From assembly GCF_052324685.1 (NCBI RefSeq), contig NC_135222.1:6268914-6332913 (forward strand): a stretch of DNA of 64,000 nt. Direction: 5' to 3'. Both the position numbers and the translations under genes were made by a program. The notes beneath the pieces were generated by a model, which was not told the origin of the DNA, ran no database searches, and worked only from the letters and a program-made list of their open reading frames with translations. Positions 12,301 through 59,188 of the stretch are shown here, piece after piece. Source of the DNA: Brachyhypopomus gauderio (Eukaryota > Chordata > Actinopteri > Gymnotiformes > Hypopomidae). Position 1 is the first letter of the stretch. Each line of letters begins with the position of its first letter.

Positions 12301-15300
12301 TACCCATCTTCTGATGGCTACTTCCAGCTGGATAACACACCATGTCATAAAGCGCAAATCATCTCTGACTGATTTCTTGAATCAATCAATCAATCAAATT
12401 TTATTTATATAGCGCTTTTTACAACAGTTGTTGTCACAAAGCAGCTTAACAAGTGCCGAGTCCTAGCCCCCAGTGAGGAAGCCAAGGGCGACAGTGGCAA
12501 GGAAAAACTCCCTAGATTTATTTGCATGAGGAAGAAACCTTGAGAGGAACCAAGACTCAGGGGGGGAACCCATCCTCCTCCGGCCGACATCGGTCACCAT
12601 GACAACAACAACAATTTAGACAGAAAGAAACAAAGAAAAGAAAAAGATGTAGTAATGTCCATCATGGTGTAGGCTTATCCGGTCAGGCAGTAGGTGGCTG
12701 GCACTGGATGAATCGCTTGTCCCTCCTCATCTCATTTTTCCTCGAGCAGGCGGGCAGCCATGTGGAAAAAATAAAACAGGGAAGATTGAACAGGGACAGA
12801 TGAAATTAAACACATTTCTGAAGTGTGGCAGCAACTCCGGCATTAAGTTAAACTATTACAGCCTAGCTAAAAGGCAGAACCAGAAGGTAACATAGGCTTG
12901 GGGGCATTCTGAGACAATGGCATCCATCCACTGCACTGTCAACAAACTTGAGTGACCACGAGCCATGGACGTAATTTTGATTTCAAAAGTGGGGGGGACA
13001 TGGATTCATCGCTATTTAAATATTCGGTTTTAACCGTAAAAACTGGAGGGGACCAAAGCCGGCTTTTGAAAAAGTGGGGGGGACATGTCCCCCCCCAAAA
13101 TTATGTCCGTGCCACGAGCAGTGACAGGACGACAGCACTAGCGCCCCAGTCTACCATAAAACCCTTCGTCTATGAACCCCTGGATCTGTACCTTTATCTA
13201 AAGGGGGATGTTAATTTTCAAACGCTAAACCAAATAGGTGGGTTTTCAACCTAGACTTAAAGATTGTGACTGTGTCAGAGTCCCGTACGCATTTTGGAAG
13301 GTTGTTCCAAAGCTGGGGGGCCTTATAAGAAAAGGCTCTTCCCCCTGCTGTTACCTTATTAATTTGTGGAACTAATAAAAGACCAGCACCCTGTGATCTT
13401 AGTTGACGTGGGGGTTCATAGTAGGAAAAACATGAACATGACAATGAGTTCACTGTACTCGAATGGCCTCCACAATCACCAGAACTCAATCTAATAGAGC
13501 ACCTTTGGGATGTGGTGGAACAGGAGATTTGTGTCATGAAAGTGCAGCCGACAAATCTGCAGCAACTGCGTGATGCTGTCATGTCAATATGAACCAGACT
13601 CTCTGAGGAATGTTATCAGTACCTTGTTGAATCTATGCCACGAATTAAGGCAGTTCTGAAGGCAAAAGGGAGTCCAACCCGGTACTAGCAAGGTGAATCT
13701 AATAATGTGCCCGGTGAATTTTAAATGCTGTGCATATTTTTCTATGGAATCTCTAGAATTCCAGAAACTTAAAAAAAAAACAATGAGCTAATGGATCCAG
13801 TATACATTTTTGAACTGATGTTTCTTACTGGAAGTGACTTTTTCACTTTTGCATTCAATCCACTACATAGTTCTCCAGAAAAGACCAGGGAATTTACAAA
13901 GCAGTCCTGGGGGATGATCGTGGAAAGGATACTTCTGTTTATGACATTTCTGGCCAAGGTAATATGTGAAGATTTCTTCTTGCTGTCTGGTTGCAATAAA
14001 TAATGTAATTCATAATAAGAATTCATAGTTCCTTTTCTTGTTTTGCAGTATTTGAGGAGATCATCAATGCCATCGCCCGCATTGCCGGTAAATTTTTTTT
14101 GTCTATGCAACATAATAGAATTTTTATTTGATTCAGACATGTGACGGTTCTTGCTGAAAAATAATTATATGAATTTATCTGCTTAAAATTATTTAGTATT
14201 AGATATTGTATGTTATTACATTCAAAGTGAATGAGATACAAGAGCAATACAGTGGTAATGCTCTCACCATATACACATCTCTGTTGTGAGTGTGAGCTTG
14301 AATTGAACTTAAATGTTTAGTGTATAAGCACAGGGCTCTTTCAACCCATCATGCATTACATGAGATGCTTGCTGAATTCTAAATGGCTCATGGTTCTTAC
14401 AGGTTCCTCTGCTTCTGACCTGATGATGCAGTGCACCCCAGAGGGCATTAGGCTGCAGTGTTACATGAAATACTACACAGAGGAGATGAAGACAAGCTGG
14501 TTCCACAAGTACTCGCAAGATTTCACTTATAATAACACCTGACAGAGCAAAATCCTCATGCCTGTATTGGCAAAGTTAATTTAGAATTATTACCACTGTC
14601 TTAAAAACTGTTCAAAATACGTCCATAGATAAAATGAACTTGCCAACATGGCCCTTTAGGTTTTATTGACAGAATGGCAAATAAGTCTGATCAACACAAG
14701 AGTAGTCTTATCAGTAGAATCATATAGAAAATGAGTGACCGCCATTTTCCACATAATGTCAAAGAAATGCTGTTATATTTGTAACATTTATATAGTTGGT
14801 GTTCTTGTGGATTTTAGGGAGAGTAAGATCGCCTCTTCAGAGAAGATGAGGATTGGAGGAACATCAGAGATGGCTTGGATGCAAATTTGTGAGCCTACTG
14901 ATAGAGAGAAGGGTCATTACTCTATTGAAATCCATGATGGCAAAAATGCCCACACCCGAACCTTCGACCTCTCTGGACAAGGCAAGTCAAAAGCCTTATT
15001 GATTACTTATGATTACATAGGATTGCCTCTCTCTTAGCGGCATGTTTTATACAATAAGTTTTATGTTTATTCTGCCCATCCAAAAAGGACTTGTATATAG
15101 GATGGTAATTGAACATGTCACCAATTATTGTTGTCTTCAAAAATATATTCTAATATCTATTCATTTTTTTTTCTTTTCATATCAAAACAGCATACACTGA
15201 GGCCTATGCAGAATTTCAAAGACTTAAGTAAGGCCAACACTTGTACATGTAGATATATAATTTCACTTAAAATATTTTATGTATCACTATTAACTGGTAT

Positions 15301-16266
15301 GTTTTGGGGTTTTCTTGCTAATGAGCTTTTGTTGTTGTTTTCAGGGCGGCTGCCTTTGCTGAGAAGAGTGAGTCTGAGCATGGAAAATGATCATTTTCCA
15401 TGTAGTATTATTGTGTACTATTGTGATTCAATGCTACTTTCAAATATCTTTTAATGATATTCATATATATTTAATGATTTTCCAGTTGGTGTTTTTATAG
15501 ACAAATCTAAAACATTTTGACATAATATTGTTCTGTTGATGTTGTAATTACTGCATGTACTACATATTGCTGGATGTCTGCATTTGACAAAATGCCTCTT
15601 CTCCTGGTTTTCTGTAGATCGTGGCAGAGTTGTAGGTGGACTACCTGATGTTGTCACCATTATGGAGTATAAGGTAATACTTACTTGATCATAGTAGTGA
15701 GTTAAAACTAGCTTCCACTGTACCCTTCGCATTTGTAGTCATAATGACCTACAATGCACCCATGGTTTTCTTGTAAACTCTCACTTTTGCAGACCTTGAG
15801 TTTGACATGCACAGTTTGGGGTGATCCTAAGCCAGAGGTCACCTGGTTTAAGAATGAGCAGGAAGTAGTGTCTGATGACCACAACCAGATCTCCTTTGAG
15901 AGCGGCAAGTTCGCCAGCTTGACCATCAAGTGTGTCACAGTGGACGACTCGGGCAAATACAGCATTAACGTTCGCAACAAGTATGGAGGCGAGTTTGTGG
16001 AGATCACAGTCAGTGTCTACAAGCAGGGTGAGGAGATCCCTGAACCCAAACTGGGCCAGACATCTAGAACCAGCGCAGCGCCCAAACCTGCTGCACCACC
16101 CTCAAAACCCCAAACTCCTACACCATCCATGAAGTCCCCCACCCCCACCCCACCCCAATCTGTTAAATCTCCAACCCCAACTCCTAAATCCCCTACCCCA
16201 CCCAGGAGCACCAAGTCTCCCACCCCTCCAAGGTTCATGAGGTCCCCAACTCCCACTAAGAAGTAA
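311..16266 (+). CDS. myom2: Myomesin-2-like M-band protein, 3' portion (26 exons, N-terminus outside window)
   Basis: Structural protein that crosslinks thick filaments in the sarcomere M-band. Exons: 311-452, 581-774, 3759-3868, 4300-4483, 5256-5430, 5646-5767, 7694-7881, 8013-8139, 8428-8606, 8706-8820, 8910-9069, 9184-9290, 9407-9451, 9548-9684, 9868-10012, 10118-10177, 10392-10459, 10678-10791, 13871-13958, 14049-14087, 14403-14508, 14818-14981, 15191-15227, 15345-15367, 15618-15673, 15793-16266. All phases agree and give about 1118 residues in one open frame. Domain order is Fn3 x5 then Ig x5, as in the C-terminal part of myomesins. The stretches [20 protein letters not shown] and [10 protein letters not shown] resemble human MYOM2 more than MYOM1 as I recall them. 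Every Fn3 domain starts at a phase-1 intron. Two introns use GC donors (after 9290 and 14981). Which teleost paralogue (2a or 2b) is not resolved. Confidence 0.93.
1431..2950 (-). mobile_element. LINE 3' fragment (CR1/L2-like reverse transcriptase C-terminus), decayed
   Basis: Read on the minus strand, about 2650 to 2250 encodes the conserved LINE motif series [23 protein letters not shown] and [19 protein letters not shown], broken by a stop. The 3' end at 1431-1470 is the A/T-rich tail (GCTATATAAATAAATTTGA). The same family recurs at 12381-13430. The 5' limit near 2950 is approximate. It sits in the intron between the first two Fn3 domains of myom2. Family assignment rests on remembered motifs. 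Confidence 0.75.
6033..7204 (+). mobile_element. Tc1/mariner-like DNA transposon, full-length but inactive
   Basis: The inverted ends (TACTCTCATCAGCCACAT at 6033, and its counterpart ending GGCCGGTGAGTGTA at 7204) are flanked by TA, as expected for Tc1 insertion. The interior is the fish Tc1-like transposase region on the plus strand, with recognisable WSDESRF and PCHK segments. The frame is broken in several places. The Asp codon expected before N-x-PCHK is TAT (Tyr) at 6865-6867, so one catalytic residue is lost. It lies in the myom2 intron 5768-7693, in gene orientation. Confidence 0.9.
10988..12010 (-). mobile_element. BEL/Pao LTR-retrotransposon pol fragment (integrase region), decayed
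   Basis: On the minus strand, 11984-11604 encodes a Zn-finger-like CTICRKFR segment, then [13 protein letters not shown] and [11 protein letters not shown]. This is the typical order of zinc-binding motif, first catalytic Asp region and ARAVHIE-type motif of BEL/Pao integrases. A second piece (11514-11221) continues the integrase C-terminal part ([17 protein letters not shown]). There are frame breaks and no LTRs, so this is a truncated relic. It carries a 9-bp repeat (ATAGTACCA, about 4 units, 11273-11308). Confidence 0.8.
12381..13430 (-). mobile_element. LINE 3' end inserted into the second Tc1 element
   Basis: The minus strand encodes the LINE C-terminal motif [14 protein letters not shown] followed by [10 protein letters not shown] (13360-13215). 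A 3' UTR follows, ending in a (TTGA)n tail, seen as (ATCA)n on plus at 12381-12396. The family is shared with 1431-2950. An hAT-type miniature element (12964-13111) is nested inside its 3' UTR. Confidence 0.82.
12964..13111. mobile_element. 148-bp hAT-type MITE with perfect 8-bp target duplication
   Basis: Inverted ends CATGGACGTAATTTTG and CAAAATTATGTCCGTG are flanked on both sides by CCACGAGC (12956-12963 and 13112-13119). An 8-bp duplication is the hAT signature. The element has no coding capacity and is the innermost insertion of the stack in this myom2 intron. Confidence 0.88.
16021..16266 (+). other. myom2: Ser/Pro/Thr-rich C-terminal tail of myom2
   Basis: After the last Ig domain the frame continues about 80 residues, rich in P, T, S and K, before TAA at 16264-16266. 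It contains five copies of [K/R]SPTP. Human MYOM2 has only a short non-repetitive tail, as far as I recall. The repeat looks like a low-complexity expansion with several S/T-P-x-K/R phosphorylation-type sites; that reading is inference. Confidence 0.85.
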
Positions 16267-17653: not shown

Positions 17654-19890
17654 TTAGATGAAGTATTCCAGGCCTTCTTTCCGGTCAAGTGCTTGAGTTT
17701 CACTCTCAAGCCGTTTCATGGCAATGAAATATTGCACAAAGGACTCACCTAGTGCCCCACAGATTGTACTGTCTTCTCCCAGGGCCTCTAAAGCATCCTC
17801 AAGTTTCACAGGGATTGCAAACTTCTTCTGCTGGGCTGGAGTTCTGTTAAGAACCTCTTCAATGCTAAGGTTACATTTGATACCATCTAGTCCAGCTGCT
17901 ATGGTGGCTGCCAAAACTATATAAGGATTTGCCGTTGCTGAACCAAGCCTATTATCAATATGGGCCTCCCGCCCACCATGGACCTTCACGTTAAAGGTAC
18001 AGCTGTTGTTGTTGCAGCCATAAGTGGCATGGTATTGCTGCTTTGAATCTTTCCCCTTAGTTAGATGAGCACGGCAGCCAGTCCCTGGTGCCAACAGGCA
18101 GCTTAGGGCCGGTGAGTGCAGAAGCAATCCACTCAGCCATTTCTTACCGATCTCAGACAGCTCCTCTGTGCCTGATTGGAAGAGACTTCTTGTACCACTG
18201 GCATCCCACAGGCTATGGCAGAGTATTCCTGAATTGTAGATGGTATCGTCTGTGAGGAAGGTGGCAAGGTAGTTATACTTCCTGGCCATCTCCTTAAGTC
18301 CAGTGCGGAAGGTGAAGGCACAGTCAGCAGCTTCAATCCCAAACTTAGGCTTGAAGCAGACCTCTATCTGACCTGGACCACTAGCCGATGCAAAGCTGTC
18401 CACATCAACACCCATGTGGTACATCCCTCTCATCAGCTGTTGTAGGAAAGGCGTGTCATGATTACTTAGCAAAGTAGTGGCAGGGAAAAGCACAAGCTTG
18501 GGGTCCATACCCTCTGAAACGTCTAAGATGCAGCATTCGTATATGAAAGAGGAAAAGAAGGAGAACCCCAAGTGTTGTAGCTGACCGAGCATGACCTTAG
18601 CAACAATGCGTGGTGAGGTATGCAGTGGTGTCCCTGTGATGGTGCAGGGATCACAAATGAGGCGAGCAGTTTGCTCCACCCAGGGAAGAGCCCGGAAAGT
18701 GGAAAGATCAGGGACCAAAAGGACATCGTTGCTGAAACTGGGAGCCGTTGGATGATCAACCTCATTCTCTCTGGGGCTCAGTGTTAACTCCAGATAACTT
18801 CTGGGCATGGGCACTCCATGAACAGCTTTTTCCTGTGATGCCAAAAAAATATTTGAGGGTAAATTTTTTCAAACTTGCATTTATTCATTGTTTTAGTAAA
18901 GCTAACAGCTTATTCAAACATTTTCTGTTGGCGAAATTATTGAATGTAACTTCAGAGAATCATAACTTGACGAAGTTAAATGTAGGTGAGCAGGCAGGTA
19001 TTTACATGAAAGAAGTGAGAAGGGACCATCTTCGATCTAGACACACCATGAAGATCTGCCGCTTCAAAGCGAATAAAGCCTATGTTCTCACAGACAATCC
19101 GCTGCTTTATGTGTTCAACCACTGAAATGAAGCTTTGAGATCCACGAGATCCTATCTGAACATTCTCTTTGTTATCTATGGCGTATACAAACATGTTTTA
19201 AAAACATGTACACAAAAGGTTTATAAAAATGTCTAAATGTTCTTCTATTTTTTTTTATCACAGTCTACAAGGAAAAGTGGAGGTAAAGTGGAGATTAATA
19301 TTGCAAAATGCACACTAACCTGAGTGTGATGTCCTGCTGTGTGAACTACAGGGCCTGTTTGTAGGACCATCAGTGCATGGTGACCCACCAGAATCCCAGC
19401 CAGATGAAGTGATCTCTCTTGGTCCGGAGGTTCTCTCTAGAACGGGTTTGAATGTTGTGAAGGACCTAAATGGTTCCTCATCTGGTCTGCAATCTCTCCT
19501 CTTTCCAGGCATGTGCTGGGAACGAACTGACCGGCCCTGCATTGCTTCTCTTGGACTCAGTAGGGATCTTTGCTTCAATACACTCTTCAGTTCCTGAACT
19601 GTTTGTTTAGAAACACCTCCTATGTGCGGTTGGTCATCCTGCTGGGCTCCTCTACACCATGTGTCAGCACATACATCATCTCCCTGTGATTCAGTGGTGA
19701 CAGCGTGCTGACTGCATGAGCCAATTGAAATTACAGTGGGATTGTCTTGGGGCTTTGGAACTGGTAAATCAGTCTGGACTATGGGCATGTAAGTCCCTTT
19801 CCTCACCCAGTCATCACGCTTCCCATTTACTATAACTTCCTTCTTTCTGCTATGACTCAGCCTGCCTCCATCTACTTGATCTGATTCCAT
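17654..19890 (-). CDS. lgsn: Lengsin (glutamine-synthetase-fold lens protein)
   Basis: Lengsin belongs to the class I glutamine synthetase superfamily. In mammals it is a lens-specific pseudo-enzyme. Three coding exons on the minus strand: 19890-19320, 19175-19006 and 18832-17654, giving 1920 nt and 639 residues in consistent phase. Exon 2 carries FIRFEAADLHGVSRSK. Exon 3 carries the beta-grasp and catalytic-fold region, with GKKWLSGLLLHSPALSCLLA and LGSATANPYIVLAATIAAGLDG, ending LEYFI like human LGSN. The first exon encodes about 190 polar residues that I cannot match to a domain; the human protein is 509 residues. An acceptor-like sequence just upstream of the start (AATTTAG) suggests an upstream non-coding exon. 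The gene is divergent from ptp4a1. Loss of synthetase activity is family knowledge, not shown here. Confidence 0.93.
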
Positions 19891-23901: not shown

Positions 23902-25705
23902 AGCATAAGCAGTGAACCTGCTGCTAAAGCAGGATCAAAGTGTTTCTCCAATATGGGCAGTGTGTTCTCTTAAGTTGGGAACGTGTAAAAAATATATATA
24001 TATTTCTGAAGAAATCGGTGTCATTCACTTGTGAGTATTCCCTTTTGTCTCGATTTAACATAGTAAATGCTGTCTTTTGGCAAGTTCAAGTGCTTATATT
24101 TGCTTGTTTAATCTAAAGAAGGATGTCGGGATGGCACATCTCTTATTAGCCATTGGCTTTCCCCCCGTCGGCAAGTTGTCACAGGAGTGTGCTCTGCCAA
24201 ACAAAGCGTTTTACAACCATGCAGCATCGGAATGATTATTTCAACTTTGTCCTTTTTGTTTTTAATGATCTTAAGTCCATCTTTAAGATGCCTGCCATGT
24301 AATGGTTAATATTTAAATGCCTTATTAAAGTGGAAAAGGCCATTTAATGGGGATACGTATATGGCATTTGATGTAGTTTACTTGTGAAAGATGTGTAAGA
24401 CAAGGAGAATCATGGATATTAAAAAATAATTGCTGTAGAGGTATATAAGGAAGCTGTTGGATCTAGTTTGTGTTGTTTATCCAAACTTTGTTTACTAATT
24501 ACTGCCATGTCAATAGTGTGATGTTTGTGTTTTGGCTTCAAACTGGACCTCTGTGTTATTTTGTATGCCTTTTTATTTGATGTGCATAACTTAATACTTG
24601 GATACTTGATTTGTGTATGATATTTGAAATATGTACAATTAGACTGGCTATTTATACTATTGATGGATATGTGATGTAGTATAGTGAGAGAAGTTGTAAT
24701 TGTTCACCAACTTGAGAGAGTACATTAAAGACAACACTGAGAACATAAGTAGTCTGAATTTCCTTCGTTCATGTTGATGTACTCTTCCATGCTTTGCATA
24801 CAAAAACGTGCAGAGCTTTATCAAAATCATTTATTTACCCCCTTTTCACAACTGTAGGTGTGACATTGAACCTTTTAATCAAATAAATAACGTAATAGAA
24901 CTGTCTTTTAGAAAAGAAAAGGCTTAAGTTTCCTTATTGCATGAAACCACACACTGAATGTAACTGCAAATAATAAATCTCTGATCTTATCAGATGCACT
25001 AAAAAATTAACACATGGATATCAATGAAATGCAATTAAGGTATCGGTGTAATTTGTTAAAGGAATTAAGTGTTAATTGATTTTTCAGAATATTTTACACA
25101 AGAATTTTAGGTCCATCAAATTGGTATAGAAAGGGTGACTGAGGCATACAGTTGATTGGGAGGCCATGAAGTATTGTATATTTACATTAGCCTTGTGTTT
25201 TAAATCATGTACAAACTGCAGCTGACTAATGTCACTACATAAAAGATGTGTGCACATTACAATTTTATTTAGCTTTTTCTCAGATGTACATTTCAGGTTG
25301 CAAAAAAATGTACTTAGAGATTCACTATGTAAGATTTTGTATGACCAGATTTTTTTTACGTTATTATTGAGAAGGCCTGAGAATTGTCAAATGAAGTCCT
25401 GTGTAAACAATTTTTAGACACTTTAGGCCCTTCAGGAAACGTACCCAACATGATCAAATATCTTTCTTGATCTCAACTAAAAACATCTGGCTCAAAATGA
25501 TACATGGCATATCTTTTAAGGAAAATAAAAATGAGTTCAATATGCACACACAAATCACACTCATGGTGGCAAAGTACTGCATGGCAACTCCCTGCAAAAA
25601 AACAACCTCCACTGAGGATGGATTTTCCCTCTGTAAGTCTGTGAACTCTTCTCCGACGTTCACACTGGGCTCAATTTTGCGACAACTGTCTACTTTTCCG
25701 ACCTC
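23902..25705. other. 3' flanks of convergent ptp4a1 and col9a1
   Basis: The ptp4a1 3' UTR occupies about 23902-24745. Candidate minus-strand poly(A) signals for col9a1 (AATAAA, seen as TTTATT on plus) are at 25264-25269 and 24830-24835. If the distal one is used, the two transcripts end within about 100 bp of each other. No other gene is seen. Confidence 0.5.
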
Positions 25706-28189
25706 TCAAAGGCCGTCGGGTCCCTTCATGTTGTACTCTTTGGCAGACTGCGATGCTGCCACAGCCTGGAGAACACATTGTGATGCCTCGCAGTATCCGT
25801 TAAGGCCAGCAGGTCCTGGAGGCCCTGGAACACCGGGCATCCCGGGAACTCCCCGAGGTCCTCTCAGCCCATCACGTCCGTCGCTACCGTACGCTGGATG
25901 CCCAGGTTCACCTGATGAGGTGAAGACGAAGGAACAGGTGGGTATTAGTATTCCGTGGCCTATAGACTTAGGGTCAGTTAAAGAAAAAAAAAACATTTTA
26001 CACTCACCTGGAAGACCAGGAGGTCCAGGTATGCCTTTGGGCCCTTGTGTTGTAGGACCTTTGTCTCCTCTATCTCCTGGGTCACCTTTGTAGGGACAGG
26101 ATAACAACAAAGATTGCACAAGGCTTATACACTTGTCTGGGAGCAAATTCGCATATCAGTCTTTCTCAAACAAAGTTTGTTTATTATGGTTATTTTGTAC
26201 CTTTAGGTCCTTTACGTCCCAGGAACCCAGGTGGTCCTTTAAGACCTGGCAACCCTCTGGTTCCAGGATGCCCTGGGAAGCCATTCTCTCCTGCAGGCCC
26301 GATGGGGCCGGGAGGACCGGGAGGACCTGGCAACCCAGCACTGCCGGACTCTGGTCTCTTCAGGCTGGCTGCCAGCTGAGCTAGCTGCTCTGTGAAGGAA
26401 ACGGGTTCGAGACGTCGGTCAAAGCCTAGTGCAGCACATTGTGTAATCTCTATCTTCCTGTTGCACTGACTGTGTTGCAACACACACGGCGAACACAGAC
26501 ATTGCGCACTGACCTTGCATAACCCTCATGCAGACCTGCTTAACATGTTGATCTGTTGGAGGTCGACCCTGAAAGACAGCGATGTAAGTGCTTAGCGAAG
26601 ACCGCAGGGAGACACAATCAGGCCTCCACTTTGTAATGGAGCAAATTTTCCAAGTCATGCACACCTGAGTCCCTCACCTAGTTCACTTCAGAAGTCCAGC
26701 CAATTCTATATACATCAATTTAACATGGACACACCATATAATTTAGATATGACGTGAAGCACCAAAGCTATTTCAGTACTAATAGCACTCCCTTGTGGCA
26801 AATAATGTTAAACGTGAGTGAGTTACAAGACAGGTCCATGAGGTGTTTCACCTCTAACTGTCTTATAACGTGCATAGAGAACGTACCGGTGGTCCTTGTG
26901 CCCCAGGCAGCCCAGGTTCCCCACGGTCTCCCTGCATGCCCCGTGGTCCTGACTGTCCCACCAGGCCCTCAGGACCCTGCTGTCCACGTCTACCCTCTGG
27001 CCCACGGTTCCCCGCATCACCTGGCTTTCCTGTCTGTATAACAGCAAGTAAAGTACATGAAGACCCTGCACGTGGTGCATAGTGACTTAGAACCTTCCAG
27101 CATTCCAGTAATGAATCTGGTTCTTGGTAATCAAAAGCAAAGTTCATGTAATGTCAGTGTTTTGTAGCCATGTGGATGTATGAAACTCACTGATCCCTTC
27201 TCTCCCAGATCTCCCTCATCACCCTGTAGGAAAATGTGAACATGCTGTTCAGATTGTTAAAGGCAAGATCTGTACTTTCTCACAAATTTTGTAGTAACTA
27301 AAACTTTCCATCTCTGAACAGACATCCTACCCCAACCAACAAATAAGCCAGAAAATAAGAATGAAAGCTATAACCATTAAATTACAACGGCTAATTTTAC
27401 AGCTTTAGAAAGGTGCTGAGACATACTCTCTCTCCTTTATCTCCTGGGGTACCTTCCTCACCGGCTGCACCCTAAAAGAACACACACAAAATCAAAAACA
27501 AACATATAAATTAAATATACTAATTAAAATACAATTAATTATTAATTGGCTATTAATTTAATCCCTATTAATAGGAAACATGCCACACAGAATTGTTAGA
27601 CCTACTTGTTCACCTTTTGGACCAGTAAGACCAACTGCACCCTGAAATATTGTTAAAAAAAAGCATTGGAATAATTGCAATATCAGTAAGAGTACTCATT
27701 CAATGTATTCACTTTCATTACAAAAAAAAAAATCAAAGAGAATTTTGATATTTTGTTCATTTTTTGCTGCCACTAACGTGCACTACTGCTGGTAGTTGTG
27801 AAATCTACATTACACAGTATAGTGCATCCCTGTAGGGGCTGACAGCTTACTGTACTGATTCAGATGTCAGACCAGTGAAAGTAATAAAGAATGAGGTGCA
27901 TGGAAGCCCCATGATTTGTGTGAAATCTGTCGTAGAATACTTACAGAATAGAGTACATGCATACATGAGCAAATAAATGAATGAATGGCAAAACAATAAT
28001 AATGACACTGTTAAACAATAATGGTATTGTTAATAAAGTTAATGGAGTCTGAAGATTACAGCCAAGTATATGTCTTACCCTGTCACCTTTTTGACCAGGG
28101 AAACCAGATGGACCTGGAAGACCAGGTAGGCCCAGATTCCCCTTTGGCCCCTGCAGAATAACATATTAATACACACACACACACGCGTG

Positions 28190-28231
<42 letters not shown>

Positions 28232-30948
28232 TTTAACCAAAGACTGACATGTATGTCTTTGATATCCTGTAAACCACACTGACATGCTCCAAGCCGAGCT
28301 GCACTGGGACTGAATGTTTTTGGATGAGTGTGTGTTGTGTGTATGGGTGCGGGTATGTGTGTGTGGGTATGTGTGTGTGTGTTGATTGCCCGATGCCCTG
28401 ATCTTGGCTCGTTTATGGAATTCCTGATGAACAGAGGGTTCTTTCAGGCCCCCTACCTACTCGGAATATCCTATTACCAAAGAAAATACCCCTGAGCAGT
28501 GAAACCTCCATAACAACCGCCTATTCATGGGCCTTTACCAACTGATCAGTGTAGTACAGCTCTTTATAAGGAGGGTTCATTACAATTTGGACCAGAAGGC
28601 AGATCTTCTTTGAATATTTGGGCAAATACTAAATGAAAATCTGAAAACAACAATCAAGACTAACGTGTGATTGTTGGATCTGGTGTTTGACATTTTGAAA
28701 ATGTCACTTATAAGTTATAACACACCTAGAAGGAATCCAATATATACCATAATTTCACACACAATGTAAAAAAAAAGTATTTTAGATTCAGTTGTCTGTC
28801 GGTATCTACAAATTAGGTACCGATATTAAATCTGATACTTTCACACAAACTGACACACAAACTGTTTCATTCTGACAGTGACATTTTAATGTGGGCCTCG
28901 TTGGTAATGGAAGGACTTGATACCAGCACTTCTGTTAAATTCCTTTACATTCCATCTTCTTCCTCTCCCTTCTTCCTCACTGTTGACATGTTTATCTGTT
29001 CTTCTGCTTCCGCATCGCTCTTAATCTTTCCACGCTAAAGTGCTACAGGTGCTCTATGTCATTTATTTAAAATCATGGTTCAGCACAGTCATACCCCATC
29101 CTAACTGGGCCCGCCTCCCTGTAATCTTCACACAACACTGTCTAGAAATACTTGAATTATCCAAGATATTGTGCCTGGTGATACTTGGATAATATCGTGT
29201 ATGGGTTTATTGTCTGGAACTGCTGGGTACTCACCCTCGGACCCGACAACCCTTGAGGTCCATCTGGACCCCTCTCTCCTCTCTCACCCTACAGGGAGAC
29301 AAGAGAGAGATAGAGAGGGAGAGAGAGAGAGAGGGTCCAGACAGTTGAGAGTGTGAACAGCAGATGCATGCCTGCTGCCTGCAGTGATGTGTTTGTGGAG
29401 ACATACTCACAGGCCCACCTCTTGGTCCTACTGGTCCCACCTCCCCCTGTTCACCACGTTCACCCTGCAGTCAACACAGCAGGTGAGTGATCGGTCAGTC
29501 AGCATGTGGGCAAACATCCACTGCTGCATCCATGTTCCCCACTACCCCAGCCGTCCTGCACGTCACTCATCATCCAGTCTCCTCGTCCTTCAGCAGGACT
29601 GCAGTGGTGGGCTAAAGCGTTTGTTGGTGTAGACTCACTTGTTTTCCATTGTTCCCAATTGGTCCTGCCACACCTGGATCACCAGAGTTACCCTACAGCA
29701 GAGAAGAGAGTAGTACTGTGAATAGTAGTAAACATGAATATATTAAGTTTAGCAAAGTCACCAAACGAATATCTCAGATTCTTCTTTGTACAGACCAGCT
29801 CATAATGGGGAAGAGAAAACATGTGAACACATGTGACTGCCTACCTTTGGTCCACTATGACCTTTTGCCCCTGGCATCCCTGGCAAACCCTACAATGTAG
29901 TAAATATATTGATTATATAAGATATTAATAGTCATTCTAAAAGAGGTTAAGGGTTGAGATGATTTCTGTTGTGCGTTGTTGCAAAGGTCTCACGTACAGG
30001 CAGGCCTTGAAGGCCAGCTTCACCTGGAGACCCCACTTTTCCAGTGATGCCCTAAAATGACAATGAGAGATATCAAGAGGGTTCGAGATGATTGATGGTG
30101 AAAAGCACCTGAATCAGAGCTGTCAAACACAGCTCTAGCAGGGACAAATGCTTTTTGGAGGTGTTTTTGACTACAGTCGTGTTCTGTCATCATGTTACCT
30201 TAACCCCTGGCATTCCTGGGATACCTTCACGGCCATCCACTCCTGGCAATCCCTTTGGGGAACATGCAAAATTGGTCAGTACATAGACTAGGTGTTTACT
30301 TTAATTTTTTATTCCAGATTATAAGATTTTTTTTCTATTATTTAGAATGCAGTACCAATGACTGGGCACTTACCGATTCTCCTTTAGGTCCACGTAAACC
30401 TGTAATGCCTGATGGACCTCTTAGCCCCTTAGTAGATATATATTAGATCAGTTGAATCAATCAATCAAACCAATTACTTTAAAATATATTTCTAGGCAAT
30501 TTTCAAATATAACCTTTTCAGTGCCAAGCAGCGACAAGAAAGGAACAGTAAATGTGTGATGTCTAACCACAGTGGGTGTCAAACACAATTGTTAATGTAG
30601 TGTGTGATGTCTAACCACAGTGGTTGTCAAACACAGTTGTTAATGTAGTGTGTGATGTCTAACCACAGTGGTTGTCAAACACAGTTGTTAATGTAGTGTG
30701 TGATGTCTAACCACAGTGGGTGTCAAACACAGTTGTTAATGTAGTGTGTGGTATCTAACCACAGTGGTTGTCAAACACAGTTGTTAATATTGTGTGTGGT
30801 ATCTAACCACAGTGGGTGTCAAACACAGTTGTTAATGGAGTGTGTGATATCACAAAGTTCACAGGGTTTTAAAAATGTGCATGTGTACAAAGTGAAGCTA
30901 GTATGATTTGGGATGATTGGTCTATTCACCAACAGTAGTTTCCAATTA

Positions 30949-36565: not shown

Positions 36566-37330
36566 CCTCTCTTCTCTCTCTCTCTCCCTTTCTCTCCCCT
36601 ACCTCATCTCTCTCCCTCTCTTCTCTCTCTCTCTCTCTTCTCTTTCCTCTCGCTTGCTCACTCTAAATGGTCAAATTGATGAACACCATATTTTTTCTTG
36701 TTTTTTTTTTTTACTTTTTTCCCCTTGTGCTGGTTTAACCTGCAGACAGTCTGTATGCTGCTACTATATGGAGATGAAAAGACAACTTTACCTTTTATCT
36801 GCTGATATTGAACATTCAGAAACAAGACAGAGTTGAGACATACATCAGCTCCTGGCTGGCCGGGTCGTCCATTAGCCCCATCTTTTCCATCATCTCCATC
36901 TGGGCCCTATAATGTTTCAATCAGTATAATATAAAGCACCATGATATCAATGAAGCATCTTATATCAAGCATATTTTACTTAACAAATATATTATATACC
37001 CGACTTAACAATATACTACTTACTGGAGGGCCAATTGGTCCAGGGCCTGGACCCCTCTCTCCCTAGAAACAAACAAATAAACAAACAATAAAATGTGTTG
37101 AGGTGTTTCATATATGAATAACCAATGGTCACAGAGACAGCAGCCTCCCAATTGAAGTACTGTTGGCTTTGAACAACGCAAAATGAAAATAAGTTAAAGA
37201 ATATATTCAGTATAGAGCTTACATCAATGCCATCAATGCCAGAAAAACCAGGAAGTCCTGGAGGGCCAGGTGGCCCTCTCGGACCAACCGGGCCCCTCTA
37301 AAAAAAACACATACATACACACACACACGT

Positions 37331-37829: not shown

Positions 37830-38923
37830 GGTCTCCCTGATGTTTCTGGAGAATGCAAAAAGTCCTTTTATTAGTTAGGGTTCACGATTTTTCTGTCAAT
37901 ATTGCCCAACTGAACCGCCGAACCATCCACGGAGATGCTCGATGTGCTATTAAAAATTCATGTTTATTCATAATGACGAACTTAAAGATGGAAGGCGGTT
38001 GGTGGAAAGTTTAAAAAATCTGCGTATGGTAGGTGTGGTCCAGATTCCTGCTACTACCTGTGGTCAGCCTACCATTTGAAAACGGTTCCCACGCATAGTA
38101 ATAGCTTTGATTGACATCGACGTATCAATGTATCACGACGATCAATTAATCAAATGTATGCACAATGTTGAAAACCATGTTTAAAGTTACTACATTTAAT
38201 AAAATAGGCAATTTCCTTAAAACGTTGTTTCTGGTTACGTTTACATATAGTTTTATATGAGTGTATTCGAAACTTGTTTGAATAAATAAGTATTATTATG
38301 AAGTGTTGTTTTTGTGTACGACTATATTAACGTTTCTAAAGAGTCACAGTAGAAGCGCCACATTCTCCTGCACGATAGGTGGCGCTATTTCACCTTCTAC
38401 ACGTCTATGCAGTCTTGGCTCGTATGTAGAAGAAAGGGCGTCGTTTTCAAAGATTTGTAACTGACTGCGTTGTCTTGGTACTCGCGAAAACATATCGCCA
38501 ACAAGAAAGGTAGCTAATGATATAGATGTATATATTGTACCATGTTAAATTAAGAAGGTTAATGCTGGATGTGTGGCGTTTGGTTACTGTTGGACTTAAA
38601 ACTTGAGTAGTTAGCGGTTAGCGTTTGCTAACTATGTTGTTAGTAAACTAGGATACATGAACCACATCCCAGATGGTTGATATGGTTCTCCACTTATTTA
38701 CATGGTTAGTTTAGCTTACTGAGTGTCTTGCTTAGTTGTTTAATATTATCTGTTAGATGTTTAACAAGCTAGCCTATATCAGATGTCACTTAACATCTAC
38801 CTATTCCTAATTGATGCCGTCTGTTGGTGTTTGTTTTTCTTTGTTGAATCGTATATAGCAGAAGTTGCATCTGATCTTGGAGGTAGCGGTTCCTCACGGG
38901 TTCTTCCGTGCGCTTCACAGACG
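37830..38923. promoter_or_regulatory. Divergent promoter interval of col9a1 and hyls1
   Basis: Only 1.1 kb separates the two start codons. A hyls1 5' UTR exon probably ends at 38509 (donor GTAGCT) and the coding exon is entered at an acceptor near 38858-38861. No collagen NC4 (thrombospondin-N/LamG-like) exon is seen in this interval. Confidence 0.55.
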
Positions 38924-41900
38924 ATGCAAGACCTTGACTTCTCAGAGGAGGAGATCCAGCAGCAGTTAAGTGTTCTTGGGTACACGAACGTGCCGAAGCA
39001 CAGACTGCGGGAGTTCAAACGAGGTGGGCGAATATGAACGAATATTCTACATTTTCGGGGTTTAGTTTTACGTTATGAAACATCGATCATTTTGATAGTC
39101 AGACAATTTTTTCTAGATCTTGATTTGCTGATTTGTCATGAGAAGTCGAAGAGCCAGACCTCAGCCGAGTGGAGCTCTCCAAAATCTCAAAGCAGTTCTG
39201 ACAAGAGTCCTGTGGTCACTAAAGAGAGAGGTTTGTGGTGGTATTTGATGGCATAATGTCCACAAAAACATGCAAAATTCAGTTTAATGTTAAATTAATG
39301 TAAGTCATCCGTTTTATCTTTGCTTTTAGTCCAGGTACACAATACTGGTTTCGATTATAGCTACATTTACTCTCACAATGATGCAGCACATCAGGTATGG
39401 ACACAACCCACAGATGACAGCCCCCACCCACTTTACCTCTGACTGTTATTTCATGATTCGTGAATGTATATTAACTTTGTATTTTTATATTTATCCTCAC
39501 AAGGTCCCGGCCTCAGCTTTTAATGAAGGTGATCGTGTGTATCAGGGTCACTTTGACGCATATATGAAGCACTCAGTGGCTCCCCGGTACACCAGACCGT
39601 CAACAGCTCCCAATAGGCTTGCAGTAGAGGAGGCTCCTTTAGACATTTGTTCTTCAGTACTGACTGCTAGTCAGACTTTTGGCCCTGACACAGGCACTCA
39701 CACAAATGGAAAAGCAACTATCAGGAGAAAAGTGCTTAGGTGAGGTTATTCTCGCACATTTTGCATCATGTGTGGTGTTTTTTTTTTTTAGAAAGTATTG
39801 TTTTTCAGATTCAAGTGTAGAATTTTTCAACTAAATAATTCCAAACCTTTTACTCCAAGGAAGCACAGGGGACAGTCTCATGTTTGTGATGAATCTACAA
39901 CCAGTGAAGACTCTGGTAAGTATTTTTCTAAAATTACTATTATAAGTGTAAGTGATATAAGTGAATGTCATGTACATGTCATACCACCTGGTGGCACCCT
40001 AGGCCTTGTGAGCAAAACTTGAGTATCAGTGCTAATCTGATCAGTGCTAATCACCACAGCTCCCTCTCAGCCATTTGCAGAGGCTTGGGGTATATGCTAG
40101 TTTTCTATTTGGTTCTGATTGAAAAGAAAAAAATGTATAAAGGCTGCTGGGAGAATATCAGTGAAGAGGACAAAGAATCGTCTTCGTCCTTCTGGACTGA
40201 CTGGGAGAGTGATGAAGAACAGGGAGAATGCTCTGTAAAGTATTACAGTGAGGGTGAACGGACCGAGCATGAAAGCAGTATGTGGGAGATTAAGGACGGG
40301 GACGATTGTGTAGCGGTAGGTGATGCAGACAAGAGGACTGCAGCAGAGCTGAGGGAGGAGAGAAAATGCAAAAGTCAGGATGAGTGTTTGAAAGATCTCC
40401 TTAAGAGCGAGGAAGCAGTTCAAAGACCAAGAGGTGAACAGCTGAGCATGAAAAAGTGTTTTTTAAGCGATGGCACTGAAAAAAACTCTAGAGAGGATAG
40501 TGAGGAAGAGACAAGAGCGCATTTAGTGAAGGAAGGTGGTACCGATGAGAGCAGCAAGTTAAGAACCAGAGGGGCTGATGCGAGAAGTGAAGATAAGACT
40601 GAATCTTCTAAGTGTGAAGATGAACAGGACGGTGTGGAAGATGATGAAGGAAGCTCAGAAGAACAGGAAACACAAAATGAAGTTAGCAGTGATGAGAAGA
40701 AGAAAGAAACGAGAGAATCGGATGGTGAGGAAGTGGCGGATAAAAAGCCCAATACTGAGCAACAAATGATAAAATCACGTGTTGAAGACGAGGACTCTGA
40801 GAGTGAAGAAACGTCAAGAAGAGAATGTGAGGACGTAAATCAATATGGCCAAGATGTGACCGAGATGATATTTGTGCACACTGACCACACTGTAGATGGA
40901 GTTAACCAGGATGAACAAAATGGCCATTTGGTGAACAAAAAGAGAATGTACAGAAGACCGGAGGAGTTGACCAGTGATGATCAGCAGAGTGAAAAGGAAA
41001 TAGAAAGTCGTGCTAGTGATGTTTGTCAGAGCGTAAAGATGAGCAAGGTGCAGACTGGAAGTGAAGAACAAGATTGTGGGAAAGAAGGGAGTAGATGTTC
41101 TGTGAATCCAGAGGGTCTAAGTATATCTGTGGAACAAGTCAGCATTGACGAAGGACCCACGGAAGCCTCTATGGGCAGCTCAGCAGGAAGTGTCTTCACG
41201 TATGGCTCTGGGACACGGAGGCCAGACTCTTTTAAAGATGACTTGGATGGTCTGGACTGCAGAGGTGACCACACACTGACGGTGTCTGTGTTGCATGCTG
41301 AATGCCCTAATGAAGGTGTGTCTATGCATCACTGTGTTGACCACGCTGCTGTCGGACCTGATGAGAACAGACTAGACAGGCAGACTTCCAGCATGTATGG
41401 TGACAAGGACATAAAACTTTCTGCTGCTACAAAGAGCATCACTGGTGTTCATTACCAAGTGACCAATTCAACTAGCCATAATGCAGCCAATGCCAACAAT
41501 GTCTGGGATGCTGGAACATTATGTTTGGATTACCACCACGCCTTTAACATGCGACCCAATAAAGGAGTGACCATAACAAAAGACCACATGGGTAAAGATG
41601 GCCATGAAAGACGAGAGACAAGGAAGGGAATGAAAGTAAAGCCACTTGTGTTTAGACTTGGTGGGTGTCACCCAGTTTTACACAGCTTAAAGTTTCTGCT
41701 TTGTTGTTTTTCAGCCCTTATTTATGTTTCAATTGCCAAGATGATGTAATGAGTTGATGAACATGTGGAGATCTGGGTTGGCATGATGGTTGGCTGTCCA
41801 TCAGCTTGCATGTGTTTGTGTTTTGTTTTATTCATAGAGCCAGTAAGTGAGCTGGAGGAGCGTTTAGACCTGTTGCGAGTGTCCGCTCCACGAGGGCCGT

Positions 41901-43247
41901 GTGATTTGGACCCTGTCAGTGAGGAAAACGGCAGCTATAGTGACACGCACAGCTCAGCAACAGAACAATTGCCCAGTGCTTTTCAGGCCTACATCAAAGG
42001 CATGGTGAGCACGTCCAGCTTTTACTTGCTGTGTTTTAGTAGCACTCAATGCCAGAACAGAACACACAGACCACACGGGGGCCACTGGCCAGAGTGAAGA
42101 TCACTGCTGTCCACTGGTGCCCCAGCCTACTGTATAACTCCTCCGGATTTTCTTTAGCTTACCTCATATGTTGTGCTCTTGTCATGATTGTTTTTTTTTT
42201 TTTTATTAATCCTTTATTATTGCAGACAAGATCACGCAGCGAGAGTGACATCCAACGGCGCCCCAAATCCTGTAAGATTTTACACTGTTGCTTAGCACAT
42301 GCTCCTGTGGGTCCAGACACCTCAGTTGTTGTGTAATTTGGTTAATTGAGGATTCTGGTTCTAGATTTATTATTGAATGAACGTAATGGGGCAAAATGCT
42401 TGAACACACACACACACAACAGTCTTTGAATTCTTAAGACCTGTTCTCTTGACTAGACTTTATTAACTTTACTCGGGTTATATCAAAAGGTATTGCCTTG
42501 CAGACGAACATTATTTTTCTGCTACCTCCACCCAAGCTCCTAGTCTTAATAATAATCCCATAATTTTCTCTTCAGTTATTCGTCCAGTTATGGATCACCC
42601 ACACACAAGAAACTTGAAAAAATCTGATCCTGTCGCAAAGTAAGATGTCCTTTGAGTGTCCAAGAAACCCAGTCCAGTGATGTTGGAAGCCTTATTTGTT
42701 TAGCTTTTACAGAGTTGACACTCAGGTATCCTCACCTGCTCCTGAAACCCTCTCAATCTTCTTCCTGTCAGGTATTTCCAGTATAAGCAGGAGTGGGAGT
42801 TGTTCAAGGCGCCCGGTGAGAAGAACAGGAAGGAGTTACACTGGGCTATCAGGGTATAGTAAATCCTGTTCTACTTAGCTAACTCCACGAAGACTCCTAA
42901 TGCGCGTATCCAACTCTTCACCTGTGTAATGTACATAAAATACATATTCTTATCAAATTAATACCTCCTGTTTCCTTGTGTCCTCAGGAACATCTCATGT
43001 ACCAGCCTCCTCCTGTAAGCAATAGCCACTTTCATATCAAAGACTTCTACTTTGTCCATTACCTGCACTGTATATATTTTGTTTTTGTCGTCATACCATT
43101 TTGTCATGCTTGCAGCCAAAGCCTCAGAGGACGTACATCCCCAACACCTACGTGGTGCCCACGGCTAAGAAACGTTCCGCCTTAAGATGGGAGATTCGAC
43201 ATGATTTGGCGAACGGCATCATTCCAACAAGAATCATCTACCGTTAA
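38924..43247 (+). CDS. hyls1: HYLS1 centriolar and ciliogenesis protein, with a large acidic exon
   Basis: HYLS1 associates with centrioles and is needed for cilium formation; human mutation causes hydrolethalus syndrome. Exons: 38924-39023, 39117-39230, 39330-39394, 39504-39739, 39860-39915, about 40143-41660, 41838-42004, 42226-42271, 42576-42639, 42772-42853, 42988-43014, 43116-43247. The total is 2607 nt, 868 residues (human 299). The N-terminus shows [15 protein letters not shown]. Mid-region RRKVLR then DESTTSEDS aligns with human RKVLRRKP..DESIISESES. The C-terminal HYLS1 box region includes [16 protein letters not shown] and [20 protein letters not shown]. The extra length is mostly the acidic exon. 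Its start could be 40071, 40101 or 40143, all in phase. Poly(A) signal at 43368-43373. Convergent with mrpl4. Confidence 0.93.
40143..41660 (+). other. hyls1: Acidic ~506-codon cassette exon of hyls1
   Basis: A single open frame of about 1.5 kb, rich in Glu, Asp, Ser and Lys (for example [10 protein letters not shown]), with scattered Cys and no recognised domain. It starts after an AG at 40141-40142, phase 1, and ends at a TTG/GTGGGT donor at 41660, phase 1. Skipping it therefore keeps the frame and gives a 362-residue protein nearer to human size. The upstream open frame from 39965 to the acceptor looks intronic. Confidence 0.8.
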
Positions 43248-43392
43248 TGAGAGTTTGAGTGAACGCGTGTCACCTTGTCAATTGTGGTGATGTTTTTATT
43301 TATTGGTGTATATTTCCATTGCCTGTGAACTGTGAGACAGGAATGAGTGACAGATCACTGTTTATGAAATAAATTTTTTTTATACATTGAGT

Positions 43393-44995
43393 TCATGGCA
43401 GGTCACTGTATGGGAGTTTGAAAGGGTACAGTGGTGTGAATCTGGAGTCATGCCACAATAACTTCTTCTCTAGAAACTTCACTGCCTCCAGAGTGAGGAC
43501 CAGACCTTCGTGTTTCAGCATGCTGTGAACATTCAGACCTGTAAAGTGAGAAGAATTTCATGGGAGGAGGTGTGGGGACATGAAGGTAATCATTGGTTGT
43601 CTTATTAAAATGCATGTACAGAGGAGAATTTGAAAGCAAGAGTTTGACACCATAGGAGTGTTCACTGTAACTTTGTAAGCACAGGCTTACCTATTGCTGG
43701 AATTATATTCACTGTCTTCAGGTTTTGTGTGGCTTGAAGAATGTTCTGTGGAAATTCCTCCCCTCTGAAAAAGATAAAAACAAGAAAGGTTGATGTTTTG
43801 GCAAGTCAAGACACTTAAGAAATAACCTGCAAGTGGGGTATACTCACACATCCACAATCAGAACCGAGTCCCCCCACTGTCTGTGACTGATGAGGTCCTG
43901 TAGGTAGTGTGGGTCTGGACTGGGGATCTCTAATGAGTCAACGATATGAAGATAATCCTAAAGGAAAAAACAGCTTCATATTACATGTATACAGAATACA
44001 GACGTATGGAGTTTAAGGCAAAATTCTACTCCCTTTGTACTCCATATATATTTCCTAGATACCATAAACATATTCCATTTAAAGTAAATATGATGACTTC
44101 CATTATCAAAAAAAAAAAAAAAAAAAAAAAAAAAAGCCTAGTGCAGGGGTGCACAACATATGGAGGGCCCGCCAGCTGATAAATAATTTGGACCGCCTTC
44201 TGGCTTCGTGCCAGAATTTGAACGACATAATACATAATTTGTCTCCATTTTACACTACACCCCCCCCCCCCCCCCCGCAATTTAACAATTTAAACTCAAG
44301 CCCTTCAACCAGCTTTACATTTATTTTTGGCCCGGCTCCTCCTTCAAGTTGTGCATCCCTGGCCTAGTGTTTCACTAAAGGATGAAACATTAATTTTAAT
44401 CACAACTATATTGCCAAAGTTTTTGCTCCTTAGAGATGAGTCTTTACTCACCTGAGTCAGTTTGGAGGTCAGTGCTATTTTGAGTCCTTGTACACGCACC
44501 TTCATGGGCAACATGTAATAGTAACTGGTAGGTCCCCTTGGACCACGAGCAACTCCCCCTTAAACAGAGACAGCTCAGATTCAAATACTCGTATTCCAGA
44601 CGTCATTTAGCTGTACACAGTAGCAGTAGTTGATCACATAAAATACCAGGTATCAAGCTGCAAGGCTGAATGCCAGTGTGTGTCTGGCTGTGTTAGGTAA
44701 AGGACGATCTCACCTCCCCTCCATAATGGTGAGCGAATGCTTCCATGCCGAGCGCGACCACTTCCTTTCTGTTTCCATGGTTTCCTGCCTCCTCCTCTAA
44801 CCTCTGCCCTACTCTTCACCTTGGCATAGCTCTGGAGGTTAATAAACACTATTAATAAAACACTTATCAGCAAGATCAAACTGCAGTGTGGTTGCACCTG
44901 CCCTCTGAATTAGTATGAGGTCACTCACACTCAGGTATACTTGACAAGAGAATGAAGCCATGGCCTTAAAATTATTATGTTTCTGTTGAAGCAGT

Positions 44996-47744: not shown

Positions 47745-49324
<1,580 letters not shown>

Positions 49325-56090: not shown

Positions 56091-59071
56091 TTAGCTGACA
56101 CGCACTGTTTTAGTGACAGTGGTGGTGGTGCTGGATCCACCTGAAAGAGAACAGACAGGTCCGTTTATATTTGCTCAAAAGTTCTGAAGAACAATCCTAG
56201 TCCAATATCTGCAATGAGGAGAAATGATAATTACCTGAGCTGGGAATCCTGAAAAAGGAGGAGACAAAGATAAATTATTCATTTTATAACAGCAAGGGTT
56301 AATTGCACTGGATGTGATGCTGTTCGTTATCACGTTTTTGTGTTTAGGAAAGGCGTTTAAAGGCATGTATGACAGTGGCTCTACCTGGACTCCTCCTTTT
56401 CCAGGAGGCTCCTGTAGGTGGCGATCTCCTGCTCCAGACGGGTCTTGATGTCCAGAAGCATGTTGTATTCCTGCCGCTGCTGCTCAATGCTAGCTCTGAC
56501 CTCAGATAACTCCAACTCTAGTCCGTTGATCTGGTTCTGGAAGCTTGCTAGCATATTACTGTAACGTGCCTCTGTATCGGCTAATGTGTTCTCCAGTGCT
56601 GCTTTCTGTAAATAAAAGACACAGAGGTTATGGGAAAATTAGGCCAGGGGCCTCTGTTTCAGAGTGTTTATTGTATTTAACTTTGGACAGGAAGCCTGGA
56701 TGTTAAGATACACAAAGGCACTAGAAATAACACTCTGGTTTCTATTTTTCAAGAGTCTATTCTTTGGTTGAACATGGCCTTCCTGCTCTTACATGAATTT
56801 ATCTCTTTAAGTTCAGTGGCACTTCTCTCTGTCTTATGTCAGCATTGAAATATGCTCTCTTTAGAAGTCAAGAATCGACCTAGTCCAGAACCTCCTTTTG
56901 AAGTGTCCAGCAAGATTATTCATGCGGACAGAGAGTTTCTTAGTAGCAGAACTGCACAGGGGATATGCAAGTCCACACTCATGTGTCAAAACCATTTAGA
57001 AGATCTTTTCACTTTCACCCCATAATGCCTCCTCTACATTCTTTCCTGCATGTGTATGCGTCTCTGGGATGTGTTTGTGAACTTTGCCTTGGTATCTCTT
57101 CTTGTCTATTTCTGACCAACCTCCTCCCACACATTTCATCATACTCCCCCTCTCTCTTGTTTTCCCATGTGCTCTATGACCTGTTCCCTCCCTTCCTCCC
57201 TCCCTCTTTGACTCTCATCCACCCTGAAGGCGTCCCCTTCTCACCATGCTCAGCTGTGACTGAAGCTCTATCTCCAAGCCCTGCAAGGTTCGTCTCAAGT
57301 CTGTCAGCTCGGTCTTGGACGTCTGGATGGTCTCTGTGCTTATGGCCACCTCTTTAGTCAGCGCTGTGGACTTGGGGAGGAATATACACATCAATTAGGA
57401 AGGATTTTATCCATAATCTAATAATCATCAAAAATGATTATTAGGGTTTATGGGTTTAGAATTGTCTGAATGACATGGAAAGCATAAGTTGACGTTTGAC
57501 TACTGTAATATAGTATTCAGAAATAGGGTAAACCCTCCTCACCTTCTCATTGAACCAGGCCTCTTGATCTCTGCGGTGCTTGTCTGTGATGGCCTCATAC
57601 TGACGGCGGATTTCGTCCAGAACCTTGTTCAGGTCCTGCTGAGGGGCAGCGTCTACCTCCACATTCACGGTACCAGTCAGCTGAGATCTTAGAGCTGCTA
57701 GTTCCTACAGAAACATGCGCAAGGCTTTGAATGATTACAGATGCTTGACTTCATTCCTTCATTCCTTTGCCAAAAAAATCTGAAAATCAGTCAGATGGAT
57801 TTTTAGGAAGCCATTTTTTCAGCCAGATTCTTGGCACATTCTTGGACTCTCAAGTTGAAGAAGTTCATGTACACTACAAATCATCAATGTGGTTTTTTCA
57901 CATTCTTTTGCCATCTCAAAGCAACAATAGTGGCTCAGTTTAGTGCAGATGTGTCATGCTACCAACCTCCTGGTGGTTCTTCTTCAGGTAGGCCAGTTCA
58001 TCCTGAAGACCTTCGATCTGCATCTCCAGGTCGGCCTTGGTCAGGGTGGTCTGGTCCAGTAGGCGGCGCAGGTTAGCAATATCGGCCTCCACAGATTGAC
58101 GCATCATCAACTCATGTTCATACCTGGTTAGTGGAGAGAAGGGATTAATGCCAATTTGACCTCACAAATACATGTGAATATGAAATCAGGACATGTAAGC
58201 AGTAAAAACACAATTTTTAAAGAAGGACAAGAAACCTTTTCACATCTTACTTTGTTCTGAAGTCATCGGCAGCCAACTTTGAATTGTCAATCTGCAGGAG
58301 AATGTTGGCGTTGACGATGGTGGCTTTCTTGATCTAAAACAGAATCGATTATTAGACATTGACATTACAAAGTATGTATTAGGCAAGATAAAGCACCAAA
58401 CCTAAATCAGATGAGGATGCCTAATATCACAAAGACTCTCAACCAATCATTACTATGTGTTCATCTATTATCTCTAAAGTTAGTTATGAGTTTCAATGTT
58501 TCACCTTTATATTTCTGGGCTGCGCATAATCATGCACTGTATAGAGTTACCCATGGTCTCACATTAAGAGCTCCCCACCAATTGCCCCTTACTGTACCTT
58601 GTCCTTCAGGTCGTTGATGGTGACCCAGTATTGGCTGTAGTCTCTCTGGGCAGCTGGTCCTTTCTTGTCATAGAACTCTCGAATCTGCAGTTCCAGTTTA
58701 GCATTGGCAGCCTCCAGGGAGCGCACCTTGTCCAGGTAGGAAGCCAGACGATCATTCAAGTTCTGCATTGTAGCTTTCTCGTTCATGGTGATGGAATCGC
58801 CGTCCAAGGCAGAAGACAGGTTGAAAGCATCTCCCCCATATCCACCATACCCACCACCCCCACCCATGGCAGCACCAAGTCCACCAAACCCAGAAGCAGA
58901 GCTTCTCATTATGGATGAGGACATGCGTGCACCTCCAGCACCACCATAGGAGACTCCAGAAACACTGTAGGCTTTAGGTGCAACCCGATGGGAGACCATT
59001 GTGGAACCCGCAGGGCCGCCGCCATACACACTACGCCTGGTAGTATAGACCTTCGAGGATACCACAGACAT
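56091..59071 (-). CDS. Type I (acidic) keratin, complete, eight exons
   Basis: Intermediate-filament protein that pairs with type II keratins in epithelia. Exons on minus: 59071-58598, 58333-58251, 58123-57967, 57704-57543, 57370-57245, 56605-56385, 56248-56235, 56140-56091. The internal exon lengths 83, 157, 162, 126 and 221 nt are those of type I keratin genes. The total is 1287 nt, 428 residues. The Gly/Ser/Tyr-rich head is about 96 residues. The helix-initiation motif [20 protein letters not shown] is type I, not type II. The helix-termination segment is [23 protein letters not shown]. The short tail is about 25 residues, ending [14 protein letters not shown]. Exon 7 is only 14 nt. The specific orthologue (krt18-like or another teleost type I) is not resolved. 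Confidence 0.95.
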
Positions 59072-59188
59072 GCTGGTAGCTTGGTGTTTGCCAAGAGGAC
59101 TCAGGAGAAAACCGTCTCGGAGAAGTTACTCTGAACTGGAGTGTCCTGGAGTGTGCAGAAGGGTGCAGCTAGATCCAGCGACGTCCCT

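Follow-up and report, generated by a model that had tools for sequence, protein, structure and literature searches.

HYLS1 in other animals and the hyls1 locus

The centriole protein HYLS1, which is small and conserved, carries mutations in the severe ciliopathy hydrolethalus syndrome (PMC10960023). According to the same human study, residues 151–299 of HYLS1 suffice for the formation of incomplete-microtubule superstructures, and D211 is modelled next to the C-terminal tail of the beta-tubulin TUBB (PMC10960023). The numbering of the human protein reaches 299 in that study (PMC10960023), fly HYLS1 is given as 242 residues (PMC7253586), and the mouse Hyls1 coding sequence is given as 962 bp (PMC10486571). 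The lengths stated in these papers therefore leave no room for an insert of 505 residues such as the one described here.

The window analyzed here, i.e., the whole stretch of DNA under study, comprises 64,000 nt of the Brachyhypopomus gauderio assembly GCF_052324685.1 (NC_135222.1, positions 6,268,914–6,332,913 of the forward strand), and window numbering is used throughout. The hyls1 gene lies on the plus strand at 38924–43247 and has 11 coding exons besides a large acidic exon at 40143–41660. Coding exons 1 to 4 were placed from the open frame and splice sites at 38924–39023 (with the ATG assumed at 38924 and the exon ending in phase 1), 39117–39230, 39330–39394, and 39504–39739, and exon 5 (39860–39915, donor score 10.7) ends in phase 1 with DESTTSEDS plus the first base of a codon. 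The exon next after the large one (41838–42004) and that at 42226–42271 were also placed from the open frame and splice sites. The remaining exons (42576–42639, 42772–42853, 42988–43014, and 43116–43247) encode the C-terminal domain of HYLS1 (HYLS1_C, PF15311) and the stop codon, with the domain match starting at residue 263 of the form lacking the large exon, in exon 42576–42639, and ending in the last coding exon. In this form of 362 amino acids, the match covers positions 1–90 of the 90-position profile (E = 5.9e-43, 146 bits compared to a cut-off of 27). A profile search of the 796-Mb genome with HYLS1_C recovered two matches at E ≤ 0.001, and both are exons of hyls1 itself (42772–42853 and 43116–43247); accordingly, no second or processed hyls1, which would reveal the splice junctions, was found in the genome by this search.

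The full HYLS1_C profile is common to the known HYLS1 proteins and the fish product, whereas the fish protein carries approximately 505 extra residues in its middle. HYLS1 of human, mouse, and fly has near 240–320 residues, compared to 868 amino acids with the large exon and 362 without it in this fish, a difference that concerns the insert only and leaves family membership unaffected. The conserved blocks DESTTSEDS and ELEERLDLL, which flank the insert, are presumably adjacent in human HYLS1. Asp 774 of the 868-residue product (within PVMD) lies where a putative counterpart of human D211 in the HYLS1 box would be expected.

Open frame and 5′ boundary of the large exon

The sequence-only reading had described a stop-free frame of 1.5 kb that was unlikely to have arisen by chance, and both points were borne out, as positions 40145–41659 comprise 505 codons with no stop codon, whereas dinucleotide shuffling of the exon, repeated 1000 times, gave a mean of 33.4 stops per frame, never fewer than 18, and open runs of 172 codons at most. 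The frame that encloses this one from stop to stop (39965–41749, 594 codons) is the longest among the 6917 counted in the window, and the other two forward frames of the exon region contain 32 and 65 stops. Frame neutrality was also confirmed, since the exon is bordered by phase 1 on both sides and measures 1518 nt (3 × 506), and the product lengths of 868 amino acids with the exon from 40143 and 362 amino acids without it were reproduced, the latter product being complete and in frame. The donor at 41660 (TTG|gtgggt, score 6.6) is in phase 1, which fits the acceptor of the next exon at 41838 (score 7.4). The only AATAAA or ATTAAA 3′ of the stop codon within the scanned region (38801–43600) is an AATAAA at 43368–43373, and the only other such motif in that region lies within the large exon at 41558. 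Because neither motif occurs from 41660 to the hyls1 stop codon, a message carrying the exon would probably use the 3′ end of hyls1 itself.

Codon use was scored in 60-nt windows with a table trained on 1153 codons (the other exons of hyls1, the glutamine-synthetase-domain exon, C6orf120, and the keratin exon), with the other introns of hyls1 as the contrast set. The in-frame log-odds were positive in all 25 windows from 40157 to 41656, and the reading frame was the best of the three in 23 of them. The score was negative in the three windows that follow (41657–41836), so that the drop coincides with the proposed donor at 41660, within the 60-nt resolution of the method. Upstream, three windows (40156 back to 39977) were weakly positive (0.11–0.15) and that at 39917–39976 was clearly negative. 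On the other hand, the choice among synonymous codons within the exon yielded a log2 ratio for the training-gene table of –9.5 relative to intron bases and –32.5 relative to the base composition of the exon itself. In 1000 draws on the latter scale, the coding table gave 78 ± 14, while values of –17 ± 17 were obtained from intron bases and –88 ± 17 from those of the exon, which places the observed –32.5 such that the silent positions of the exon resemble intron bases. The GC3 of the exon is 0.424 compared to 0.495–0.534 in the four training sets. As synonymous choice shows no coding preference, the coding signal of the exon rests on the avoidance of stop codons and on amino-acid make-up.

Splice sites were scored with a simple weight matrix of approximate base frequencies; on this scale, the ten hyls1 acceptors outside the large exon fall between 3.2 and 11.4, and the donors of the other exons, also ten, between 2.7 and 10.7. 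The start of the exon at 40143, as had been proposed, was not confirmed, since its AG scores –8.9 while the in-frame AG at 40071 scores 8.8. The reading had offered three in-frame starts in all (40071, 8.8; 40101, –3.2; 40143, –8.9), and the one chosen is the lowest-scoring of these. The stretch before it is rich in A, with only 3 of 16 positions being pyrimidines, and its score is lower than –1.65, the median for all 4018 AGs of the window, while the acceptor at 40071 ranks between the 97.5th and 99th percentiles. A start at 40071, however, adds 24 hydrophobic codons (40071–40142, including an in-frame ATG at 40133) with a coding score of 2.4, similar to non-coding sequence: this value is reached by half of 3838 open frames in 2001–15000, a region taken as mostly non-coding, and such low scores are rare among coding windows, at 2.3% for the large exon (482 windows) and 3.2% for the other hyls1 exons (340 windows). 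The large exon is thus flanked by a donor of 6.6 and by an acceptor of either –8.9 or, with an extension of non-coding appearance, 8.8. With so poor an AG at 40143, and with codons resembling non-coding sequence brought in from 40071, the 5′ end admits three readings. The exon may start at 40071 with the hydrophobic piece, it may rely on the weak, perhaps regulated acceptor at 40143, or its 5′ end may be that of an alternative first exon with the ATG at 40133. Depending on the start, the insert comprises 505 (from 40143) or 529 (from 40071) full codons plus one junction codon.

Intron 5 also harbors a cluster of acceptor-like AGs at 40003–40081, three of the four being out of frame (40003, 4.9; 40060, 3.5; 40081, 8.8). 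Use of any of these three would lead to a stop codon after 196–203 residues, and the AG at 40081, which is as strong as that at 40071, would do so after 196. This cluster could serve as a poison-splice switch for hyls1.

Composition, predicted order, and relatives of the insert

The 505-residue insert consists of 23% Glu and Asp, 17% Ser and Thr, and 13% Lys and Arg, and contains 15 cysteines. Its description as acidic applies to the first 330 residues, which carry –48 of the net charge of –51, but not to the last 175 residues, which carry only –3 and are therefore not notably acidic. With a mean hydropathy of 0.366 compared to a charge–hydropathy boundary of 0.45, the insert falls on the disordered side. 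The same holds for its first 330 residues and for the parts of hyls1 before and after the insert, while the last 175 residues lie at the boundary. Among five single-sequence AlphaFold2 models, the best had a mean pLDDT of 40.6 (28.9–34.5 for the others), with 414 of its 505 residues below 50. The presumably folded control C6orf120, under the same treatment, also scored low (mean pLDDT 53.3, 89 of 208 residues below 50), and the prediction thus separates order from disorder only weakly. In the best of the five models, the first approximately 90 residues (40145–40414) reached block means of 53–79 with mixed helix and strand, which may reflect either a small domain or an artefact of the modelling. 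Casein-kinase-2-like (CK2-like) sites were not enriched in the insert (23 compared to 20.2 ± 3.7, a count reached by 545 of 2000 shuffles). Overall, the sequence-only interpretation stands as far as a genuine, frame-neutral coding exon with an acidic and largely disordered product is concerned, whereas its choice of 40143 as the start was not borne out and its terms cassette and tissue-regulated are conjectural.

Searches for relatives returned no convincing match. Neither the 505- nor the 529-residue version of the insert matched a Pfam family at E ≤ 1, its first 88 and last 181 residues matched none at E ≤ 10, and NCBIfam yielded none at E ≤ 1. Among PDB sequences, three matched the insert at E ≤ 1 (best 0.044, none convincing) and none matched its first 88 residues at E ≤ 10; fold searches with the insert gave no usable match. 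Six peptide patterns from the insert, which reach close relatives only, were absent from IMG/VR viral contigs. As expected, the hyls1 core had no match in IMG/VR, and a pattern search of archaeal and bacterial genomes gave 14 matches with no relative among them; against the PDB, it matched no chain at E ≤ 0.1. A fish hyls1 exon is not the subject of any title or opening of an abstract among the literature matches listed.

Two origins of the insert were considered and rejected. A transposon or an exon captured from elsewhere was sought in the genome, where scoring of the best candidates gave one DNA and one protein match (E ≤ 1), both being the exon itself. Growth by repetition was sought within the exon, which has one weak internal 23-nt repeat pair and no tandem array. 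Long disordered exons inserted lineage-specifically into conserved proteins are a general phenomenon, and the present insert is similar in being a single in-frame exon with no recognizable domain and no second copy found in the genome. It differs in that the host is a small ciliopathy protein, which would be enlarged 2.4-fold.

Interpretation of the exon and its surroundings

We consider it very probable that the stretch is a real coding exon of hyls1. The fuller reading, which we favor with some reserve, is that it is a protein-coding exon of fish hyls1 encoding an insert that is acidic in its first two thirds, probably mostly disordered, and placed between the N- and C-terminal parts of HYLS1. 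The exon would probably be included in most hyls1 mRNA, and regulated skipping seems rather unlikely. Most likely, it would supply a lineage-specific acidic and largely disordered insert ahead of the microtubule-assembling half of HYLS1. The term fish-specific is to be read only against the HYLS1 lengths published for human, mouse, and fly.

The closest competitor overlaps with this explanation and opposes just the word cassette: the exon may be a constitutive coding exon of the fish lineage that is never skipped, and its chances come close to even. Most internal coding exons are constitutive, the open frame and matching phases fit such an exon, and the weakness of the acceptor is the sole pointer to skipping here. 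Nevertheless, weak or competing acceptors, such as those found at this exon, are common at alternative exons, and the 362-residue skip product is itself complete and in frame. An alternative first exon is improbable, although it would explain why a decent acceptor is missing where the coding signal begins. Under this alternative, a promoter in intron 5 would yield a shorter HYLS1 from the in-frame ATG at 40133, which has an A at –3, and the acidic module would be joined directly to the microtubule-assembling C-terminal part with the N-terminal part omitted; the donor at 41660 and the shared 3′ end are compatible with this. However, intron 5 has no CpG, neither TATAAA nor TATATA occurs upstream of the ATG, and the good in-frame acceptor at 40071 would have to be a coincidence.

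The remaining alternatives fare worse. It is quite improbable that the exon is decaying, i.e., that it was formerly coding, lost its original acceptor, and is now mostly intronic. The sub-median acceptor at 40143 and the intron-like synonymous positions are in line with decay, but the complete lack of stop codons in 505 codons means that the acceptor would have to have been lost very recently. A separate gene nested in the hyls1 intron, with its own start and its own end at the stop codon 41747–41749, has a precedent in Drosophila, where chiffon is described as occupying the intron that separates exons 1 and 2 of hyls1 (PMC7253586). The enclosing frame (39965–41749) does have its own ATG and stop codon, yet the coding signal falls at 41657 rather than at that stop codon, no AATAAA or ATTAAA lies between 41660 and the hyls1 stop, and the phase fits the downstream hyls1 exon, which leaves a nested gene a very slim prospect. 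Finally, a chance open frame in purine-rich DNA might be suspected from the 64% A+G on this strand and from synonymous codon choice free of coding signal. Its likelihood is close to negligible, as 505 open codons in a given frame are expected with a probability of approximately 2e-15 from the base make-up of the exon, and none of the 1000 shuffles came near.

Returning to the favored reading of a coding exon included in hyls1, the insert would act as a long charged tether before the half of HYLS1 that in human cells suffices for building incomplete microtubules and is modelled as trapping the C-terminal tail of TUBB, setting the reach, partners, or local charge of that half with no added enzymatic activity. 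We regard this mode of action as doubtful. To our knowledge, the control of HYLS1 activity is an open question. A highly improbable extension would be that the insert, when included, imitates the C-terminal tail of tubulin within HYLS1 itself, occupying the tail-trapping site and keeping the microtubule-assembling half inactive until this half is freed by skipping or by a change in the charge of the insert, so that splicing would set centriole-building activity in the fish lineage. In a comparison of mode of action only, the insert resembles the acidic, disordered C-terminal tails of tubulin in being acidic and probably disordered, but it spans hundreds of residues and lacks this acidity in its last third.

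If the fish makes the form with the insert, which exceeds the rest of the protein in size, this would be a natural experiment on the distances, charges, and partners that HYLS1 tolerates, and a direct comparison of the 362- and 868-residue forms in cells would be possible. Gene annotations based on RNA may already include the exon if it is common among fish, in which case its novelty would be lower.

Several neighboring features were observed in the window. Immediately upstream of hyls1, on the strand opposite to it, two frames at 36661–37297 (minus strand) have weak matches to the collagen triple helix that fall short of the Pfam cut-off (E = 0.00073 and 0.02), and a Pro/Gly-rich plus-strand frame at 25407–26093 may represent additional collagen exons read in reverse. 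Downstream of hyls1, also on the opposite strand, a Ribosomal_L4 match at 44637–44909 (minus strand, E = 1.5e-18) is presumably part of mrpl4, and a C6orf120 family protein (UPF0669) is encoded in a single open frame at 47748–48371 (minus strand, E = 2.3e-88). The exon at 17657–18868 (minus strand) encodes a glutamine synthetase catalytic domain (Pfam, E = 2.6e-57), and we take it to belong to lengsin. In addition, the window contains an immunoglobulin I-set domain with a Pro/Ser/Thr-rich tail after it at 15748–16263 (plus strand, E = 3.2e-20), the start of an intermediate-filament (keratin-like) gene at 58592–59125 (minus strand, E = 2.6e-19), and a tandem array at 30553–30848 with a 48-bp unit in 6.2 copies and 94% matches.
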